A DNA stretch of 53,106 nt from Anaerolineales bacterium (GTDB lineage Bacteria; Chloroflexota; Anaerolineae; Anaerolineales; Villigracilaceae), in assembly GCA_013140605.1 (NCBI GenBank), contig JABFSL010000027.1, positions 1-53,106 on the forward strand, given 5' to 3'. The notes beneath the pieces were generated by a model. The model saw only the letters and a program-made list of their open reading frames with translations. It had not been told where the DNA came from and did not search any database. Positions 3,061 through 36,357 of this stretch are shown here, piece by piece. The position numbers and the translations under genes are program-made. Each line of letters starts with the position of its first letter. Within the stretch, counting starts at the first letter, position 1.

Positions 3061-3072
3061 CAGTGTACAAAG

Positions 3073-3166
3073 CGGGAGTGGATGGGAGTCGAACCCACCG
3101 CGGCCCGCAACGCGACCCGCCACAGGTGTTGAAGACCAGGAAGCCCACCGGGACCTAACCACTCCC
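3073..3166 (-). tRNA. selC: tRNA-Sec (anticodon TCA)
   Basis: On the minus strand the RNA starts GGGAGTGG and ends CCACTCCC plus discriminator G, an 8-bp acceptor stem, one pair longer than in ordinary tRNAs. A 5-bp T stem with a GGTTCGACTC loop region follows. The anticodon loop is CTTCAAC, anticodon TCA, closed by GGT/ACC with one T-T mismatch lower in the stem. The variable arm is long and GC-rich. Length is about 94 nt and CCA is not encoded. The 8+5 acceptor/T helix and the UCA anticodon are specific for selenocysteine tRNA. No selA, selB, selD or obvious selenoprotein gene is in the window. Confidence 0.85.
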
Positions 3167-3317: not shown

Positions 3318-3393
<76 letters not shown>

Positions 3394-6356: not shown

Positions 6357-7794
6357 GAATTTGGTGAAAACACTGGGCGACCCGAACTGCCCGCATTGCG
6401 GGGGAGCGGGTTATGTCCGCATGGACTTGCCGCTCGGACATGAAAAATTTGGCAAATTGGAATCATGTGTATGCCGTGCGAAAGATGTGGCGCAGAGCGC
6501 GCGCAATCGTTTGTTTGCTTTAAGCAATTTGGATCGGCTGACCCATTTGCGGTTTGAAAACTTTAAAGCTGCGGGAAATGAAAAAGCAAAATTCATGACG
6601 CCGCAGGAAAAAGAAAATTTGTACAAGGCGTTTGAGACCTGTGAAGAATTTTCGCGCTTACATAACGGCTGGGTATTGCTCGAAGGCGGATATGGCTGCG
6701 GCAAGACTCATCTCGCGGCGGCGATTGCAAACGATGCGGTGGGCAAGGGAATGCCGACGCTTTTTATTACAGTGCCTGATCTGTTGGATTCATTGCGTTT
6801 TGCGTATGCAGACCCTGAGACAACTTTTGAGCAACGCTTTGATGAAATTCGCAGCGCGGACTTGTTGATCCTCGATGACTTTGGCACACAGAACGCAACC
6901 GCCTGGGCGCAGGAAAAATTATTCCAGATCATTAATTATCGTTATATCAATAAACTGGCGACTGTCATCACGACCAATTTGATGCTCGATGAGATCGAAG
7001 GACGTATCCGTTCGCGATTGCAGGATGATGAATTTGTAAAATATGTAAAGATTAACGCGCCTGATTATCGCCGCCCTGAAGAGACGAGTAATCCTGGCAT
7101 CTCAATGTTGTCTCTGCCTGAAATGAAAGCCATGACATTCGAGAAGTTTCAGATGCGTGAAGATGAGATCGGCAAGGAAGCGATCACAACGACCATCACC
7201 GAAAAGCAGGATAAGTTCGGGAATAAATACAAGGATAAAGAGATCACGCGCGTCAAAGTAACCAAGGAAGATGTAAAGACCTTGCATGAAGCTTTTGGCG
7301 CGGCGGCGCGTTTTGCGGAAGAACCGCATGGCTGGCTGGTGCTGCTGGGACAATCCTTCTGTGGAAAGACTCATCTCGCTTCGGCAATTGGCAATTACCG
7401 CATCGGTCTTGGCGGACAGGCGCTTCTGGTGGAAGTCTCTGCATTGCTCGATTATCTGCGTCAGACTTTTCGCCCCAGCTCCGAGGTCCCGTTTGATCGG
7501 CGTTTCCATGAAATCCGCACCACGCCTTTATTGATCCTCGATGATCTGAAAGAAAGCGGATCAAGTTCCGTCTGGGCGGAAGATAAGTTATACAGCGTTT
7601 TGAATTATCGTTACAACGCGCATCTTCCCACGGTGATTACTTCCACAATGCGGGCTGATTCCTTTGCGTTGAGTTATTCCAATTTATGGAACAAGCTGCT
7701 TGACCCAACTATGTCCCAAATCCTTGTGATCGACATGCCGCCGTATCGCCGCGTAATGAAAGCAAGCAGGGCAGGTTTGCACAAAAAGAAGTAA
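6271..7794 (+). CDS. DnaC/DnaI-like helicase loader with two tandem AAA+ domains
   Basis: 507 residues, about twice the usual DnaC length. A zinc-ribbon-like head has CPHC at 40-43 and CVC at 66-68. AAA+ domain 1 (about 95-270) has Walker A GGYGCGKTH (139-147), Walker B LLILDDF (198-204), sensor TTN (234-236) and SRL with Arg (248-250). AAA+ domain 2 (about 330-500) repeats the plan with GQSFCGKTH (360-368) and LLILDD (420-425), but TSTM replaces the sensor-1 TTN and no SRL arginine is seen. Start chosen because AAGGAAAAAGGG precedes ATG 6271; ATG 6304 is an alternative. It overlaps the DnaD gene, so translation is probably coupled. Likely loads DnaB; the second domain may be structural. Confidence 0.85.
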   Translation: MKEKINKTLSKMQTDTRTASSPSSSTEIENLVKTLGDPNCPHCGGAGYVRMDLPLGHEKFGKLESCVCRAKDVAQSARNRLFALSNLDRLTHLRFENFKAAGNEKAKFMTPQEKENLYKAFETCEEFSRLHNGWVLLEGGYGCGKTHLAAAIANDAVGKGMPTLFITVPDLLDSLRFAYADPETTFEQRFDEIRSADLLILDDFGTQNATAWAQEKLFQIINYRYINKLATVITTNLMLDEIEGRIRSRLQDDEFVKYVKINAPDYRRPEETSNPGISMLSLPEMKAMTFEKFQMREDEIGKEAITTTITEKQDKFGNKYKDKEITRVKVTKEDVKTLHEAFGAAARFAEEPHGWLVLLGQSFCGKTHLASAIGNYRIGLGGQALLVEVSALLDYLRQTFRPSSEVPFDRRFHEIRTTPLLILDDLKESGSSSVWAEDKLYSVLNYRYNAHLPTVITSTMRADSFALSYSNLWNKLLDPTMSQILVIDMPPYRRVMKASRAGLHKKK

Positions 7795-9951: not shown

Positions 9952-11298
9952 ATGTCCATTTTCAATAACACACGCCTGACAAACGAAACATTTAAATTAG
10001 ATATCGAAAGAATGCGCCGCGGCTGGTATTCGGATAAATACTTTGAGAATATCAACCGCATGTTGATCGCGCTTGCCCAGGATGGATACGTCTACTCGGG
10101 CGAATATCACAACTTGCCAGCGGGCGTCTCTGCCGAGAATATATCCGTGGGCGATATTGAAGTGGAAATGCAGTGGTTCACCCGTCGCCTTGGGACAACC
10201 GTGGTGGTTGGTGTGGACAAAGCGCTGGAGATGCTCCGTCATTGCACCGGATATTGGGAGAATGAGCGCTTCATCGAAACAGCCGATAAATTGGAAGTGT
10301 GGGCTGTGCAGGACGGTGACGTGACCGAGTCCACAGATGGCAACCCGATGAACGTTCAGCCTGTCATCAAAGTGCGCGGACGTTATCGCGATTTCGCCCT
10401 GCTTGAGACGCCCACCTTGGGAATCTTGACTCGCTCAAGCCGTGTATCTAGCAATGTCTATGAGACTTTAACTGCTGCACGCGGCAAACCAGTTTTGTTT
10501 TTCCCCGCGCGTTTTGACTTGCACGAAGTTCAGGCTTCGGATGGTTATGCCTACAACATTGCGGTGCAAAGATTCAATATGGATTATTCGCAAAAGCTGG
10601 GGCCGTTCGTTTCGACAGATGCGCAGGGAGATTGGTGGGGCGGCGCAGGCGGCGGGACGGTTGCTCATGCCGCGATCGCATCTTTTCTCGGTGATACTGC
10701 TGAAGCGATGATGGAGTTCTCGCGGATTCTGCCCGCACGCATTCCGCGCATTGCACTGGTGGATTTCAATAATGATTCTGTGCGCGATTCATTGCGCGTG
10801 TTGAATGCTCTGTTCGCAAAGTATCGTGAATTGGTGGATGCGGGGAATAAGGAAGAAGCGGAAAAATATAAACTGTATGGCGTGCGTTTGGATACAAGCG
10901 GAACTTTGCGTGATGTTTCTGTCCTGCCGCTTGGCGACCCAAGCCTTGACCTGGGAGTGAATCCGCGGCTGGTGTTCAACATCCGTCAGGCATTGGATTC
11001 TGAATCAGAAAACTGGAACCTGCCTGAGGTTTGGAAAGAGGCGGCGCGGGAATATTGCCGCAATGTAAAGATCGTTGTCTCCGGTGGATTCAATCCAGAA
11101 AAAATCCGCAGATTCGAAAAACTTGGAGTCCCCGCTGATATTTACGCAGTCGGTTCGTATCTGTTCAGCAACAACGGCATCACCGCGTCAGACTTTACGG
11201 CCGATGTGGTGCGTGTGAAAATTCACGACGAATGGCTGGATATGCCAAAGGTGGGCCGCAGGCCGCGCGATAATGCGAATATGGAGAGGGTTTGGTAG
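9952..11298 (+). CDS. Nicotinate phosphoribosyltransferase family protein
   Basis: 448 residues. It begins LTNETFKLDIERMRRGWYSDKYF, written here across the typical NAPRT start, and contains VVVGVDKALEML, LLETPTLGILTRSS, the glycine-rich DWWGGAGGGTVAHAAIASF phosphate-binding part, ALVDFNND and VSGGFNPEKI with GVGS-like AVGSYL near the end. The family transfers phosphoribose to nicotinate to make NaMN, feeding NAD synthesis. GAGGAATC precedes ATG 9952. The upstream cysteine hydrolase would supply nicotinate. Nicotinamide phosphoribosyltransferase activity is the alternative. Confidence 0.85.
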   Translation: MSIFNNTRLTNETFKLDIERMRRGWYSDKYFENINRMLIALAQDGYVYSGEYHNLPAGVSAENISVGDIEVEMQWFTRRLGTTVVVGVDKALEMLRHCTGYWENERFIETADKLEVWAVQDGDVTESTDGNPMNVQPVIKVRGRYRDFALLETPTLGILTRSSRVSSNVYETLTAARGKPVLFFPARFDLHEVQASDGYAYNIAVQRFNMDYSQKLGPFVSTDAQGDWWGGAGGGTVAHAAIASFLGDTAEAMMEFSRILPARIPRIALVDFNNDSVRDSLRVLNALFAKYRELVDAGNKEEAEKYKLYGVRLDTSGTLRDVSVLPLGDPSLDLGVNPRLVFNIRQALDSESENWNLPEVWKEAAREYCRNVKIVVSGGFNPEKIRRFEKLGVPADIYAVGSYLFSNNGITASDFTADVVRVKIHDEWLDMPKVGRRPRDNANMERVW

Positions 11299-22192: not shown

Positions 22193-22246
22193 ATGATAAC
22201 CATCCCCTCTTAAGGGCAATGGAAGAACAGGTTAACATCTTGTTAA
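22193..22246 (-). promoter_or_regulatory. Pho-box promoter of pstS (system 2)
   Basis: On the minus strand TTAAC (22246), TTAAC (22235), TTCCA (22224) and TTAAG (22213) start every 11 bp. A 10-nt gap follows, then TATCAT (22198-22193). The start codon is 35 nt downstream. This matches the layout at five other promoters here. Confidence 0.7.
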
Positions 22247-22300
22247 GGGATTCATGTCTTGAATTTTCCAATTGTTACTCGCCTTACGAAAAAAAGTGTC

Positions 22301-24094: not shown

Positions 24095-24139
24095 CGTCTT
24101 CTCGTGGAAGACAATAAGGAGGAGAAGAATGAACGTTGT

Positions 24140-24967
24140 TTATTTTTCTGCCGCAACAACAGAATCTGTAAGCAACGATAATTCAAAAGGTTGGGAATGC
24201 CAGTTCCAAGTATTGAGATCGGAAATGGCGCGATAAGCTGTCAGGTCCAATTGCAGAGGCGTGACGGAGACAAACCCCGCAGCCAACGCCCCGACATCTG
24301 TTCCTGATTCTGATACACCCGTCGGCGCGTCGCCGCCGATCCAATAATAGGGGCGTCCGCGCGGATCGATGCGTTCGTCAAGGCGGCTGTGATACACGCG
24401 CAGTCCCTGACGGGTGATGCGGAAACCATGAATATCTTCCGCTTTAAGAAAAGGCACGTTGACGTTCAAGAGTGTGTCTGCGGGCAAACCGTTGGCGATC
24501 ACATTTTGAACGGCAATCCGCGCGGCGTATGCGGCGGGTTGAAAATCAATGGCGCCGACATGTATTTCGGGTACTTCGAGTGAAACTGCAACACCTGGCG
24601 CGCCCGCGATCACTGCTTCCATTGCGGCGGTGACAGTTCCTGAATAGGTCACATCATGCCCCAGGTTTGCGCCGACGTTGATACCCGAGACCACCAGATC
24701 AAATTTCTCTTTGAAGTATCCGAGCATTGCCAGTGCAACGCAATCGGATGGAGCGCCATCGCTTGCCAGCGCCACTGTCCCATCTTCAAGGTGAAACTCA
24801 CGCAGGCGCAAGGCGCGGTCTAATGTTTTTACATGTCCGCTGCCAGACCAGTTACGGTCGGGTGCGAGGATGGTTACTTTGCCGAGATTTCGCATTTCCT
24901 GTGCGAGAGCCAGAAGCCCGGGGGCCAGTATGCCATCGTCATTGGTTACTAAAATATTTTTGGTCAT
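24140..24967 (-). CDS. surE: 5'/3'-nucleotidase SurE
   Basis: 275 residues from ATG 24967; the longer frame upstream covers the small 47-aa gene. The start KNILVTNDDGILAPG carries the metal-binding Asp10-Asp11, followed by APDRNWSGSGHVKTLDRALR, SDGAPSDCVALAML and VSGINVGANLGHDVTYSGTV. SurE is a metal-dependent phosphatase of nucleoside monophosphates and, in E. coli, also of short-chain polyphosphate. That fits this phosphate cluster. GGAAA precedes the ATG. It is third in a unit with the PHP gene and the 47-aa gene. Confidence 0.93.
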   Translation of the reverse strand: MTKNILVTNDDGILAPGLLALAQEMRNLGKVTILAPDRNWSGSGHVKTLDRALRLREFHLEDGTVALASDGAPSDCVALAMLGYFKEKFDLVVSGINVGANLGHDVTYSGTVTAAMEAVIAGAPGVAVSLEVPEIHVGAIDFQPAAYAARIAVQNVIANGLPADTLLNVNVPFLKAEDIHGFRITRQGLRVYHSRLDERIDPRGRPYYWIGGDAPTGVSESGTDVGALAAGFVSVTPLQLDLTAYRAISDLNTWNWHSQPFELSLLTDSVVAAEK

Positions 24968-25175: not shown

Positions 25176-25883
25176 TTACTGTGTGGCTATAGCCAATCGT
25201 ATAAAGACACTGCCTATGTAATTTAGCGCCCAGCTTCCCATTATTTTGTACATGCTCCATTCATTCTGCTTGCAGACTTTGGTGGTTTTGTTTTTCAATG
25301 CCATCAAGAGATCGGCCGCAGTACTGCCGTCGAATTCAGTCGCTCCAAAACCGATCGTATCTATGACATGCGCGTCACTGCTGCCGGTCTTTGCAATATG
25401 TAATCGGCTGGCGAGAAGGCTTGCGGAGTGGTTGCTGATGCGGTCTATGGATGTGCCGTTGTAGACTTCAATTCCAATTAAAGCTTCAGCTACAGCCGGG
25501 TTTCGCAACGCCTTCAAAATAGTGCGCGCCTTCAGGCTCTTCATTCCCATCCCGCCCGCCATTGGATGGGGAGCAACACAGACTCCGCCGAGTTCTCTCA
25601 CCCGTAAAACGGTTTCGACCAGCGAGAGACCAGCATCCACTTTTTCTGTGATGAAGAAGGCCAGCAGGTCACCGTCAGCGGTGGTAATTTCAATTCCGGG
25701 GATCACCTCCACGCCGTAGGCTGACGCGAGTTCCATCGCCTTGAGCGCTCCTTTAATTTCATCATGGTCTGTGATGGCGATCACATCCAGCCCCAGTTGT
25801 TTTGCGCGGTTTAAAACGGCAGGCACAGAGGCTGTGCCGTCATAGCTGTAAATTGTGTGTAAATGTAAATCTGCAAGTCCCAT
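25176..25883 (-). CDS. PHP-domain phosphoesterase
   Basis: 235 residues. HLHTIYSYDG (His7, His9) and ITDHDEIKG (His40, Asp41) are the first metal-binding motifs; IPGIEITT, APHPMAGGMG and KTGSSDAHV complete the trinuclear site. This small stand-alone PHP group hydrolyses phosphoesters, for instance in nucleotides or sugar phosphates; the substrate is not predictable. AAGGAG precedes ATG 25883. It is first in the unit PHP-47aa-surE, driven by a Pho-box promoter, and so probably scavenges phosphate. Confidence 0.88.
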   Translation of the reverse strand: MGLADLHLHTIYSYDGTASVPAVLNRAKQLGLDVIAITDHDEIKGALKAMELASAYGVEVIPGIEITTADGDLLAFFITEKVDAGLSLVETVLRVRELGGVCVAPHPMAGGMGMKSLKARTILKALRNPAVAEALIGIEVYNGTSIDRISNHSASLLASRLHIAKTGSSDAHVIDTIGFGATEFDGSTAADLLMALKNKTTKVCKQNEWSMYKIMGSWALNYIGSVFIRLAIATQ

Positions 25884-25904: not shown

Positions 25905-25969
25905 AGTCTATCCGTTGGCTGTTAATGACCTGTGAAGATCGTTTTAAGGAATTGTATGGGTTCGGTTAA
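25905..25969 (-). promoter_or_regulatory. Pho-box promoter of the PHP-surE unit
   Basis: On the minus strand TTAAC (25969), CATAC (25958), TTAAA (25947), TTCAC (25936) and TTAAC (25925) keep an 11-bp phase. After 10 nt comes TAGACT (25910-25905). Confidence 0.65.
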
Positions 25970-25970
25970 C

Positions 25971-25999
25971 AAAAGCTGCCCGCAGAGTGTGCGGGCAGC
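25971..25999 (-). terminator. Terminator of the 35-aa gene
   Basis: GCTGCCCGC and GCGGGCAGC form a perfect 9-bp stem with a 7-nt loop; TTTTG follows on the minus strand. Confidence 0.8.
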
Positions 26000-26031
26000 G
26001 GCATTAACGAAGCAGTGGTGGGCGGTATGAA

Positions 26032-26139
26032 TTACGCGCGTTTGTGCTTTTTCAGGAATTCGCGGCGTTTGCGGGTTGCGTCCACGCTGAAGACAACGAC
26101 CATTGACAGGAAAATGACGGATGGCAAAATAGTTTCCAT
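26032..26139 (-). CDS. Pho-regulated membrane microprotein (35 aa)
   Basis: METILPSVIFLSMVVVFSVD forms one membrane helix and is followed by the strongly basic tail ATRKRREFLKKHKRA. GGAG lies 7 nt before the ATG (the upstream ATG at 26148 is out of frame). The gene is alone: its promoter has four 11-bp repeats and a TATCAT box, and a strong terminator follows 33 nt after the stop. A complete transcription unit around so short a frame argues it is real. The family is unknown to me; a regulator of a membrane transporter or kinase is a guess from size and topology only. Confidence 0.72.
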   Translation of the reverse strand: METILPSVIFLSMVVVFSVDATRKRREFLKKHKRA

Positions 26140-26162
26140 GATATCTCCATTTCTATAATGAA

Positions 26163-26216
26163 ATGATACATCAATCCCTTTAATGTTGACCTAAGAAACA
26201 GTTAACAACTTGTAAA
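26163..26216 (-). promoter_or_regulatory. Pho-box promoter of the 35-aa gene
   Basis: On the minus strand TTTAC (26216), TTAAC (26205), TTAGG (26194) and TTAAA (26183) are spaced by 11 bp. A 10-nt gap precedes TATCAT (26168-26163), the same -10 as for pstS of system 2. Confidence 0.72.
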
Positions 26217-26229
26217 CGAAATTACAGGA

Positions 26230-27258
26230 TCAATAGGCATCGACTGGTTCGCGTTTAAGGCGCGGTTGGGTCTGCCTGCGTTTTGCCCGCAATACTTCCG
26301 CGGGCGTACGTATTGTGTGTTCGCAGATATTCGCAATGTATTCCGCGGAGGCGCCGTCATTCTGAACGGGCATTAATCGTTTTAACTCTTCGATATTTAG
26401 ATTGGTATGAACTTCCTTTTCCAACCCGATTGCGACGAATGTGCAGGTGGATTGCTGGGTGATGACCACCTCTGCATTTGCGATCATTTGATTAATGTCC
26501 CCGTGCGCGAATACGACCGCTCCCGGAGCGTTTTCATGGATCTCGCGGATGGCCCTTTGGGCATTTTCCAGGGGATGCAGCTTGAAAATTAGATTTTTCT
26601 TCGCGGCAATTGCATTGCATTTACGAATGAAGGCCTTCCGATCATCGTAGCGAAAAGTTTCACGTAAGGGGGATGTCACAGCGAGGACGTATCCGCGAAA
26701 TGGGAAGTTATTATTTTGTGAAATTTTCATGTTATCGAAATTTGGTATGCCAGTCACCGCTATTTTTTCTTCCCATACTCCCTTGCGGACGAACAATTCC
26801 GCATATCCCTCAGATGCCACGCAAAAAATATCGTAATCATTGGATAGTCCATTGGTGGAAGTGTTGGCTAAATAGCGGGGCAGTTTCAGCCATTTGACCA
26901 GGTGATACATGATCCCTTCAGGTTCCGTGATCCCCTCCTGCACAAGGATCACCCGTTTGCCGCGAATATTGTTCTGGATTATCAGATCGCTGCATGTGAC
27001 CACCAGATCATACGGGCGGGCTTCTCCCCGCAGGTCAAGATTTAATGCATGGCGGGAAAGATATTCCATGGTTTCGCGTTTGTGGCGTCCGCCTAAAACC
27101 GTGAAATTCAGCCAGCCCATTTTGGCCGATAAGTCTACGATCCCATCTCCGTAATAGGGTGTGAAATAGCAATCGTGTTCTTTCATCATAGTACGGGCGA
27201 TTGCGTGCATTTGGGTGGTCTGGTTCAGTGACCCACAGATAAATAGAATATTTCCCAT
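26230..27258 (-). CDS. GT-B-fold protein, possible glycosyl- or glycerophosphotransferase
   Basis: 342 residues from ATG 27258, which has GGAG 8 nt upstream; ATG 27270 is an alternative. The N-terminal half starts GNILFICGSLNQTTQMHAIA, like epimerase/glycosyltransferase GT-B proteins. The C-terminal half holds VTSPLRETFRYDDR, FKLHPLENAQRAIRE and MIANAEVVITQQSTCTFVAIGL, similar to the donor-binding half of CDP-glycerol glycerophosphotransferases and UDP-GlcNAc 2-epimerases. It sits divergent from phoU-ppx and shares a spacer with GTTAAC palindromes. A role in envelope lipid or polymer remodelling during phosphate limitation is an inference. Confidence 0.55.
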   Translation of the reverse strand: MGNILFICGSLNQTTQMHAIARTMMKEHDCYFTPYYGDGIVDLSAKMGWLNFTVLGGRHKRETMEYLSRHALNLDLRGEARPYDLVVTCSDLIIQNNIRGKRVILVQEGITEPEGIMYHLVKWLKLPRYLANTSTNGLSNDYDIFCVASEGYAELFVRKGVWEEKIAVTGIPNFDNMKISQNNNFPFRGYVLAVTSPLRETFRYDDRKAFIRKCNAIAAKKNLIFKLHPLENAQRAIREIHENAPGAVVFAHGDINQMIANAEVVITQQSTCTFVAIGLEKEVHTNLNIEELKRLMPVQNDGASAEYIANICEHTIRTPAEVLRAKRRQTQPRLKREPVDAY

Positions 27259-27366
27259 GCGCTGCTCCATTGGTTTTTGGCAAGTGTAGTGGATGTGTAT
27301 TAAGCCTCTGGGAACAGGGAATTAAGATATTGTTTAAATCCAGCTATTATTTTTCTTTACCTGTTG

Positions 27367-27409
27367 TTAACAATACCTTTTGGGGGTGTTAACTTCGATG
27401 GATTATCTT
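27367..27409 (+). promoter_or_regulatory. Pho-box promoter of the polyphosphate operon
   Basis: TTAAC (27367), TTTTG (27378) and TTAAC (27389) keep the 11-bp phase; a 10-nt gap is followed by TATCTT (27404-27409). phoU starts at 27442. The GTTAAC words are self-complementary, so they could also serve the divergent gene, but no matching -10 was found on that side. The remaining spacer (27259-27441) shows nothing else. Confidence 0.65.
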
Positions 27410-34378: not shown

Positions 34379-35599
34379 TTATGGAACAGGTATCACAAAA
34401 TAAAAAACACTTCCACGCCCTTCGTTGCTCTCCGCCCAAATTTTTCCGCCGTGCGCTTCGATGATATGCTTTGAGATCGAAAGTCCAAGTCCCGTGCCTG
34501 AACCTGTGCGGGACTTGTCGACTCTGTAGAATCGCTCAAAGATACGGGATAGACTCTGCGCTGGGATCCCGACTCCCGAATCCCGCACAGCGAATCTGAT
34601 TCCGCCGTTGGCTGGTTCTGTTTCGACAGAGATCTCGCCCCCGGGCTTTGTGAACTTGACCGCGTTGTGAATCAGATTCACCAGCACCTGCTCCAGCCGT
34701 GATTTGTCTGCGCGGATGTTTGGCAGGCCATCCTCACACTTAATGGTTAACTTCAACCCTGCGCGTTCGGCTTGCATTCTCATGCGGTCAGCGGCAGATG
34801 TGACCAAGCTCTTCGGCGCAAGCGGCGCGAGGATCAATTCCACCTGGCCTGATTCAATGCGTGAGAGGTCGAGTAGTTCCTGGGCCATTTGCGTCAGCGC
34901 GTCTACTTCAGTGCTGATCCTGCCCAGGAAACGCGGACCAGCATCCGGGTCCGCGAGAGCGCCGCTTTGTAATGTCTCGGTTAATGCTTTGAGTGAAGCC
35001 AGCGGAGTCCGCAGTTCATGTGATACGTTCGAGATGAAATCCCGCCGCACAGTTTCGAGTCTGCGCACGCGGGTCAGATCCTGCACAAGTAAAAGGCTTC
35101 CGCTCGCATGAGTATCAGGGATGGCGATGATCTGTAAAAATTGATGGCGCGCAGGCAGTTCCACAGACTCGCTTTGCATTTCATTCGTTTGCTGACAGCG
35201 CCGCCACGCGTCCACGAGTTGATGATTGCGCACAACTTCGATGACACTGTGGCCAGGCGCATTTGAAATTTCAAAAAGTTTTTGCGCGGCTGGGTTCGCG
35301 AATTGGATCAGCCCGTTTGCGTCGACAATGATCACGCCGTCGGTGAGTTGTTCAAGAACGGTGGAAAGACGCGCGTTCTCTGAATTTAAGGTTGAAAGTT
35401 GAAAATTGAAGGCGGTTTGTAGTGAAGCAATGGCATTGGATAAATTTTCAATACGATTTACATCGGTGGGGAAATCAGCCTGGCTGCGGATGTGCTGGGC
35501 ATATTTATCCATTCGTCGTTTTAAATCATAATATCGCCACGCAAACCACGCAGCGACAAGAAACAAAATAATGCTCAAAGATAATAGAAATGAATTCAT
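34379..35599 (-). CDS. phoR: Sensor histidine kinase PhoR-like
   Basis: 406 residues. One N-terminal helix (about 4-22), a short coiled region, a PAS domain (about 80-175, LTDGVIIVDANGLIQFANPAA), the H-box SHELRTPL with His194, N-box NLIHNAVKFT (308-317), and G boxes DSGVGIP (340-346) and GTGLGLS. It lacks a large periplasmic domain, as usual for PhoR, which senses phosphate through Pst and PhoU. Residues about 63-73 are encoded by an imperfect TTGAAAGTTGAAAATTGAA stutter. phoB lies 47 nt upstream in the same direction. Confidence 0.9.
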   Translation of the reverse strand: MNSFLLSLSIILFLVAAWFAWRYYDLKRRMDKYAQHIRSQADFPTDVNRIENLSNAIASLQTAFNFQLSTLNSENARLSTVLEQLTDGVIIVDANGLIQFANPAAQKLFEISNAPGHSVIEVVRNHQLVDAWRRCQQTNEMQSESVELPARHQFLQIIAIPDTHASGSLLLVQDLTRVRRLETVRRDFISNVSHELRTPLASLKALTETLQSGALADPDAGPRFLGRISTEVDALTQMAQELLDLSRIESGQVELILAPLAPKSLVTSAADRMRMQAERAGLKLTIKCEDGLPNIRADKSRLEQVLVNLIHNAVKFTKPGGEISVETEPANGGIRFAVRDSGVGIPAQSLSRIFERFYRVDKSRTGSGTGLGLSISKHIIEAHGGKIWAESNEGRGSVFYFVIPVP

Positions 35600-35646
35600 C
35601 CCGACTTTCGACCTTTGACCTTCAACCAGTACCCTTCAACTGTTTT

Positions 35647-36357
35647 TCATCCTTCAAACCGATATCCGCCGCCTCTTACCGTAACAATGCGGGTGGGGTT
35701 GGAAGAATCGGCTTCGATCTTTTGCCTCAGCCAGCGGACGTGTACATCCACCGTGCGGCTGTCGCCGATGAAATCCCAGCCCCAAACACGCTCAAGGATG
35801 AACTCGCGCGAGAGCATTTGGCGGCGATGTTCGGCGAGGAATAACAATAACTCATATTCCTTTGGCTTGATCTGAATCGGCTTGCCGCTGAGAAGCACTT
35901 CGCGGCGGGTAAGGTCAATGGTGAGATTATCAAAAGTTAGTTTTTCGTGCGGTGTGTTTGCATCTTTCGATTTCCCCATTTCCTCGCGCAGTAAACGCGC
36001 CCGCCTAAGCTGTGACTTGACCCGCGCCATCAACTCGCGCATCGAAAACGGCTTGCTCATGTAATCATCCGCGCCGACTTCGAGCCCGACCACACGGTCA
36101 ATTTCATCGTCGCGCGCGGTGAGCATTAAAATGGCAGTGGACATTTCCTTGCGCAGAATGCGCGCAACTTCGAAGCCATCCATTTCGGGCAGCATGATAT
36201 CCAGCACGATCAGGTCAGGTTTTAATCGCCGCGCTGATTCGAGTGCGGCGCGGCCATCCCCAACTGTTTCCACCGTATAACCTTCCTTTTTCAGGTTATA
36301 GGCGAGTGTCTCCTGTAGGGAGAGTTCATCTTCAACGATCAGAATTGTTTCAGTCAT
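35647..36357 (-). CDS. phoB: Response regulator PhoB/PhoP-like (OmpR family)
   Basis: 236 residues. Receiver domain: acidic pocket Glu9-Asp10, phosphoacceptor Asp53 in [11 protein letters not shown], Thr80 and Lys102 in MSKPF. The C-terminal winged helix (about 140-236) has [26 protein letters not shown] and the recognition part [16 protein letters not shown]. Together with phoR it should govern the Pho boxes in this window. Its own promoter has such repeats, indicating autoregulation, and TATATT lies 7 nt before the ATG, so the mRNA may be leaderless. Confidence 0.92.

Follow-up and report, generated by a model that had tools for sequence, protein, structure and literature searches.

Does a frame of 35 codons, lying behind a series of direct repeats in a bacterial phosphate locus, represent a genuine gene, is it controlled by the Pho system, and in which process could its product take part? 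A first-pass annotation of the stretch of DNA analyzed here (53,106 nt, hereafter the window) had described this frame as part of a complete Pho-controlled transcription unit that encodes a membrane microprotein. The window contains a large phosphate locus with two pst sets, phoU, php, surE, a phoU-ppx-CHAD-sixA-ppk series and phoRB. Ten of its proteins were compared with Pfam and nine of them fitted the names used here; the other gene names follow from reading of their sequences.

Architecture of the unit and its Pho control as judged by motif

A complete small transcription unit was located on the minus strand of the window (26217-25970). Its parts and the neighboring features are the following.

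26174-26217, minus strand: Pho box of four 11-bp direct repeats, GTTTACAAGTT/GTTAACTGTTT/CTTAGGTCAAC/ATTAAAGGGAT (matrix score 56.3)
26163-26168, minus strand: -10 box TATCAT, at a fixed distance from the Pho box
26145-26148, minus strand: GGAG ribosome site
26032-26139, minus strand: microprotein gene, 35 codons (METILPSVIFLSMVVVFSVDATRKRREFLKKHKRA) and stop (pN/pS 0.16)
26083-26133, minus strand: predicted membrane helix, residues 3-19 (Kyte-Doolittle 2.38)
26035-26082, minus strand: conserved basic tail, residues 20-35, core D-A-x-R-K-R-R-E-F-L
25970-25999, minus strand: intrinsic terminator with 10-bp stem, 5-nt loop and T-rich tail (terminator scan)
25927-25970, minus strand: second, weaker set of 11-bp repeats toward php (rank five in the window with -4.7, a score without significance)
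25910-25905, minus strand: -10-like TAGACT of the repeat set before php
25176-25883, minus strand: php, PHP-domain protein (PF02811), next gene on the same strand
24140-24967, minus strand: Pho-type surE, SurE family (PF01975)
22204-22247, minus strand: Pho box of pstS1 (score 16.6, second in the window, above the simulated maximum of 10.2)
26230-27270, minus strand: gene of a 346-aa protein without Pfam match, just upstream of the microprotein gene
27355-27398, plus strand: Pho-box-like site before phoU2-ppx (score 4.6, rank three in the window; simulated windows reached up to 10.2)
34379-36357, minus strand: phoR and phoB (HisKA/HATPase_c/PAS; Response_reg/Trans_reg_C)

Thus the four repeats, the TATCAT box, the GGAG site and the 35-codon frame were all found as described, with the Pho box starting at 26217, one base past the 26216 given before. 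The frame extends from an ATG at 26139-26137 to a stop codon at 26034-26032. The close comparison set comprised 38 homologues, 37 from the same genus (including the one from the window) and one from another genus of the same family (L106); four copies from genomes of the same genus (G398, G428, G431, G432), as well as one second copy each from G009 and G036, lie outside this set. The terminator stem (25999-25975) is followed by a TTTTG tail and has a predicted energy of -21.4 kcal/mol; the terminator scan found one such element against a shuffle mean of 0.4. A perfect-stem hairpin was present in 35 of the 38 homologues, the window's included, according to a search made for this analysis. Since the ten bases behind 17 of these 35 hairpins contain four T at most, the earlier description as a strong terminator holds for the unit of the window and does not extend to all homologues. 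The idea of a gene on the strand opposite the 3' UTR, with a separate ribosome site, was rejected, because the frames on that strand are short and vary from one relative to another. Rfam gave no family over the microprotein unit, and only two tRNAs in the window reached gathering scores, a selenocysteine tRNA and a tRNA-Pro at 3072-3166 and 3318-3393 (minus strand).

The scoring matrix for Pho boxes was built from 34 distinct boxes of homologues of the microprotein gene in other genomes and therefore favors this gene. With this matrix the box of the microprotein gene scored 56.3, whereas the maxima of 60 simulated windows averaged -4.1 (sd 5.1) and went no higher than 10.2. All 38 homologues, the window's included, carry the 44-bp Pho box of tandem 11-bp repeats and the -10 box at the same spacing. 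The motif also occurs at the expected Pho promoters of the window: the pstS1 box stands out, and the phoU2-ppx site does so by rank alone. The proposal of a Pho-controlled unit is therefore supported by the motif. In the 70 loci collected, 47 of 49 sites scoring at least 20 are followed by a microprotein-like frame, a figure that reflects consistency rather than specificity, because every locus except one had been selected through the microprotein. The 11-bp spacing of the repeat set before php recurs in relatives (by eye). The genome G024 keeps a phoR-php-pstS locus in which the repeats of php are the only ones that remain (by eye) and in which a microprotein frame was looked for and not found. 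Four further copies (L043, identical with L014, as well as L115, L125 and L126) stand apart from any Pho-type gene; for three of them the surrounding frames look unrelated, and L125 resembles L126. The unit seems to be Pho-controlled in its own right, because these distant copies keep Pho-box-like repeats, judged by eye for L115, L125 and L126.

The homologues occur in two forms. In 24 of 38 the distance from the -10 box to the ATG is 6-7 nt and the gene looks leaderless; from this gap and the usual -10 spacing we infer that transcription starts at or beside the A of the start codon. The other 14 are leadered, with a gap of 22-86 nt and a GGAG near the ATG in every case, and the gene of the window has this form. 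In a PHP tree of 34 rows, from which the leadered L031 is absent, the leadered copies form one clade of 12 plus L017, so that the split between the two forms would rest on about three independent changes.

Coding evidence and distribution of the microprotein

In order to assess whether the frame is translated, substitutions were compared in the 29 of 38 sequences that are gap-free over 30 codons (69 pairs, 75-98% identity). Differences at codon positions 1, 2 and 3 amounted to 283, 70 and 799, respectively. The pN/pS ratio was 0.16 in frame. The two remaining sense frames gave 1.30 and 5.70, and the antisense frames gave 1.26, 0.33 and 6.08, of which 0.33 was taken as a product of shared wobble positions. 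Judged from these ratios, the 35-codon frame is a real gene under purifying selection, which is strongest in its own frame. The synonymous bias that the first-pass annotation had proposed as a check was thus found, and loss of the frame in relatives that keep the promoter, which it had named as a refutation, was looked for among the homologues, where frame and promoter are kept together.

Residues M1, D20, A21, K24 and R25 do not vary among 28 sequences, and in the tail the majority sequence of these reads DASRKRREFL. The best 17-residue Kyte-Doolittle value ranges from 1.95 to 2.68 across the 38 homologues (2.38 for residues 3-19 of the window's protein), and the charge is 0 or -1 in the N-terminal part and +3 to +6 in the tail. 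A single-sequence AlphaFold2 model consists of one helix (residues 4-34, mean pLDDT 88). Hydropathy, charge and model agree in predicting one membrane helix and a very basic tail, as had been proposed, and this make-up is constant in all 38. Small single-pass membrane proteins are recognized by selection at the protein level, which is found here, and by one helix with a positive-inside tail, which is predicted. The conserved part of the microprotein is the basic motif, for which a cytoplasmic position is predicted.

Searches of Pfam and NCBIfam with 28 members, a set without the paralogues of other genera, revealed no relative, and matches of single members to families at E 0.04-0.12 were treated as chance. 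The same holds for the PDB searched with a 41-sequence profile (matches at E 0.74 or worse treated as chance) and for the DUF1127 Pfam model, which matched none of the 28 members at E up to 10. An origin of the microprotein as partial duplicate of the N-terminal helix of PhoR was not supported by hhalign (probabilities 0.5% and 1.5%), and a simple PhoR decoy is disfavored, as there is no profile relation to this helix. Among 22 membrane segments compared with two profiles (one control, a hydrolase, gave no alignment and was dropped), the best look-alikes were C-terminal helices of PstA (31% and 23%), a resemblance explicable by a shared make-up of helix plus basic tail. In the titles and abstract openings of the literature matches listed, no such protein was found for Chloroflexota. 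The microprotein is a new family of a known kind, a regulon-encoded small membrane protein, with unusual expression features, and it is nameless in the family libraries consulted; a well-formed Pho promoter can evidently belong to a gene that these libraries leave unnamed.

A first protein search matched 32 of 61 genomes at E<=1, the window's own included; three of these matches, in other families, were weak (E 0.18-0.78) and the rest belonged to the same genus. The broader profile of 41 sequences, with a cut-off of E<=0.01, gave matches in one Anaerolineales family for 97 of 152 genomes, six of them weaker than 1e-5. Within the genus 41 of 57 genomes matched, and several of the 16 assemblies without a match are incomplete. 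Outside the family, the best value was E 0.0105 among 400 genomes taken from the larger group of the order, and E 0.0014, over 14 residues, among 400 genomes taken from the larger group of the phylum. Among the genomes searched, the microprotein is convincing, by profile match, in one Chloroflexota family alone. The relatives at 29 loci are labeled as MAGs of Anaerolineales, Anaerolineae or Chloroflexi, with a few Anaerolinea sp. or Brevefilum, and we take genomes so labeled to belong to the Villigracilaceae group.

Several other genera possess two classes of the microprotein. Members of the first have a short distance between -10 box and ATG, often end in ..VDTxQKRRAFLCQQ and are followed by a hairpin; in the second the stop codon abuts or overlaps the start of surE. 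One locus of G036 (L041, contig C97) carries two copies, at 6668-6772 and 10042-10146, of which one precedes php and the other stands immediately ahead of surE. For other Anaerolineales families the surE loci of 24 genomes were fetched and 25 scanned; seven did not fit the surE motif, and in the 18 readable regions before surE, from 16 genomes, no related small frame was found. One locus (L197) has an unrelated hydrophobic frame farther from surE. A contig binned with a genome of another family (L062, G042:C71) carries a microprotein-like frame of 27 residues and a surE 84% identical to that of the window; it is probably, to judge from these sequences, a misbinned contig of the microprotein's family.

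Gene neighborhood and proposed role

The neighborhood was surveyed in the window and 69 fetched loci from 69 genomes (G009 twice), which together hold 83 copies. These loci were selected by the microprotein and not by Pho genes, and the scan was limited to the 29 other query genes of the window. Seventy-two copies have phoB, phoR, a pst gene or phoU at a distance of at most 3 kb; the number rises to 78 once ppk and ppx are added and to 79 with php and surE too. The expectation that the same frame would stand beside phosphate genes in relatives was thereby borne out. The next gene on the same strand is php in 46 copies, surE in 20, phoU1 in 5, pstS1 in 4, and the 346-aa gene and phoB in 1 each; in 6 there is none within 1.5 kb. 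As next genes, php and surE thus outnumber pst and phoU, a class of neighbors beyond those named in the first-pass annotation. The nearest upstream gene on the same strand is phoR in 27 of 83 and the 346-aa gene (labeled CDPgly) in 13, and 30 copies have none within 1.5 kb. Across rearrangement and duplication the microprotein mostly appears to stay with phoBR/pst.

The explanation that we prefer is a genuine, lineage-specific microprotein of the Pho regulon that serves as a PhoB-induced accessory or feedback protein of phosphate sensing and uptake; taken as a whole, it has about an even chance. At low phosphate, phosphorylated PhoB would bind the four 11-bp repeats and switch the unit on, as motif and locus suggest. 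The 35-residue protein would then insert as one helix with its short N-terminal end outside and the basic tail DATRKRREFLKK in the cytoplasm; its coding is shown by selection and its insertion is predicted. We regard these two steps as very highly probable. In a third, presumed step, tail and helix would bind a membrane-bound component of the sensing and uptake apparatus, PhoR or PstSCAB-PhoU, and tune it, with feedback on the inducing response as the most likely effect. PhoR/Pst as the class of partner is a tentative assignment, somewhat short of an even chance. It is proposed because of the Pho promoter, the conserved basic tail, the linkage to phoBR/pst and the small proteins known to act on kinases; counted against it were the negative hhalign comparison, the lack of a match in 16 of the 57 genomes of the genus, its absence from G024 and the closer neighbors php and surE. 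The selection and the near-constant place in the sensing and uptake cluster are reasons to regard the microprotein as a real new part of the phosphate system.

The main alternative, which we regard as rather unlikely, is that the microprotein tethers or regulates the neighboring phosphatases PHP and SurE, for nucleotide scavenging at the membrane during phosphate starvation. The predominance of php and surE as next genes agrees with it, as does the second paralogue of other genera, whose abutting or overlapping stop suggests translational coupling to surE. Co-occurrence points the same way: among the 152 family genomes the microprotein was present in 53 of 58 with php versus 44 of 94 without, and in 58 of 62 with Pho-type surE versus 39 of 90 without (cut-offs E 1e-70 for php and between 408 and 392 bits for Pho-type surE; relatedness uncorrected). 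However, 30 of the 97 genomes with the microprotein have neither gene at these cut-offs, which may miss divergent ones, some copies stand before phoU1 or pstS1 or away from all such genes, and php has its own repeats downstream of the terminator (by eye).

3' UTR, further alternatives and comparison with known systems

The 3' UTRs of many homologues carry a conserved stretch, CUUCUCCUCC, which resembles an anti-Shine-Dalgarno sequence. Between stop codon and hairpin, within 60 nt of the stop, TTCTCCTCC was found in 25 of 38 homologues (shuffle mean 0.14, maximum 2), and 196 of the 225 motif bases in the 25 predicted folds are unpaired. For other genera, the sequence CTCCTCC was present in 17 of the 31 copies without surE behind (mean of shuffles 0.52, maximum 4) and in none of the 12 copies followed by surE. 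The motif follows the leaderless form, being present in 22 of 24 leaderless copies (absent in 2) versus 3 of 14 leadered ones (absent in 11). It is absent from the 3' UTR of the window's own microprotein gene.

The 12-mer CTTCTCCTCCTT occurs 3, 4, 4 and 5 times in four genomes. These 16 sites fall in three microprotein-gene 3' UTRs, one surE 3' UTR, eight copies of a small-RNA-like element, one CRISPR-like spacer and three other places. A general 3' UTR habit of carrying CTTCTCCTCC was not supported: three genomes contain the 14-mer 1, 1 and 0 times, respectively, and four genomes contain 3-5 occurrences of the 12-mer. The surE 3' UTR of the window has TTCTTCTCCTCCTT at 24116-24129 (minus strand) before a terminator-like hairpin, the sole copy of the 14-mer in the source assembly. 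The small-RNA-like element is conserved and intergenic; by eye it has 11-bp repeats of the CGTAGG type together with a -10-like box, CTTCTCCTCCTT and a GC hairpin (L171, L173, L174, L176, L179, L182, L183, L184); in the window's own genome it lies at G000 C19:51298-51309 (minus strand) and C99:167962-167973 (plus strand). It looks to be controlled by another response regulator. The CRISPR-like spacer (L172, G021 C1:35733-35744) matches about 31 nt of the element (by eye), for which reason the element may also occur on mobile DNA or be self-targeted.

These observations bear on a second alternative, in which the unit would mainly provide a regulatory RNA whose exposed anti-Shine-Dalgarno 3' UTR represses other mRNAs, the peptide being a second product. 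It draws on the frequent and largely unpaired motif, on its association with the leaderless form and on the 12-mer shared by microprotein-gene and surE 3' UTRs and the small-RNA-like element. We nevertheless consider it improbable, given that the window's gene and the twelve paralogues preceding surE lack the motif, that the protein is under strong selection and that the association with the leaderless form reduces to about three independent changes. A dual function of the Pho transcript is doubtful, though less so: in most of the relatives examined, the leaderless mRNA would make the microprotein and the exposed CUUCUCCUCC of its 3' UTR would pair with Shine-Dalgarno sites of other mRNAs. The lack of a leader would spare this mRNA from its own motif. 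The motif in the surE 3' UTR and in the repeat-controlled element would then be the shared seed of a small-RNA network in these Chloroflexota, and in the clade of the window the microprotein gene would have acquired a ribosome site while the motif was for the most part lost from it.

A leader peptide that attenuates the downstream php-surE-pst genes is very improbable: the short frame, the hairpin and the operon-like series on the same strand would suit it, but residues are conserved along the protein, copies exist without such genes behind them, the next gene has promoter-like repeats past the hairpin (by eye) and there is no clear run of one regulatory codon. Least probable of all is a type I toxin, suggested by the size and make-up of a short hydrophobic peptide with basic tail and by one antisense promoter-like match (26103-26130), since this match lacks conservation (present in 8 of 29, the window's included) and is close to shuffle level (1 found, mean 0.6), no toxin family matched the 28 members, and the stable synteny at the Pho locus and the Pho promoter speak against it.

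The Pho-induced accessory or feedback protein, the reading that we prefer, can be compared with several known systems. KdpF and CydX are small accessory subunits of about 30-40 residues with one helix, beside a membrane complex. The microprotein is like them in size, in its single predicted helix and in its proposed place beside a membrane complex; its residues differ, to our knowledge, and the conserved motif here is the basic tail. In alphaproteobacteria there are C-rich (CCUCCUCCC) and UTR-derived small RNAs. The DUF1127 gene ccaF1 is described as preceding four homologous sRNAs (PMC12501420). The order is alike, in that a CU-rich stretch resembling an anti-Shine-Dalgarno sequence lies behind the gene of a small basic protein, but phylum and protein are different, Rfam gave no match over the unit of the window, and an RNA activity is here putative.

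Two further known systems are the DUF1127 microproteins and MgrB. Basic DUF1127 microproteins (SDPs, YjiS) are reported to bind PhoR, and Pst expression to increase when they are lost; they often have fewer than 50 residues, are strongly basic and arginine-rich and have two predicted helices (PMC12501420). The microprotein resembles them in being small, basic and tied to phosphate control, and they provide a precedent for microproteins acting on PhoR; unlike them, it has one hydrophobic helix with a basic tail and no DUF1127 match. MgrB is reported to be made in the PhoQ/PhoP regulon and to inhibit PhoQ (PMC2789325, PMC8404706), binding its periplasmic domain (PMC12501420). The microprotein shares with MgrB that it is a membrane microprotein from a two-component regulon, and the same feedback logic is proposed for it; in contrast to MgrB it has almost no outer part and a conserved, predicted cytoplasmic tail, and it matches no family. 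In the paper on DUF1127 proteins, PhoR is described as having no outer sensing domain and as proposed to read the Pst transporter via PhoU, whose mode of action seems species-dependent (PMC12501420). A Pho-induced microprotein of little more than a helix and a basic cytoplasmic tail, conserved in a family and located beside phoBR/pst, is a compact new candidate in the PhoR/Pst/PhoU circuit.
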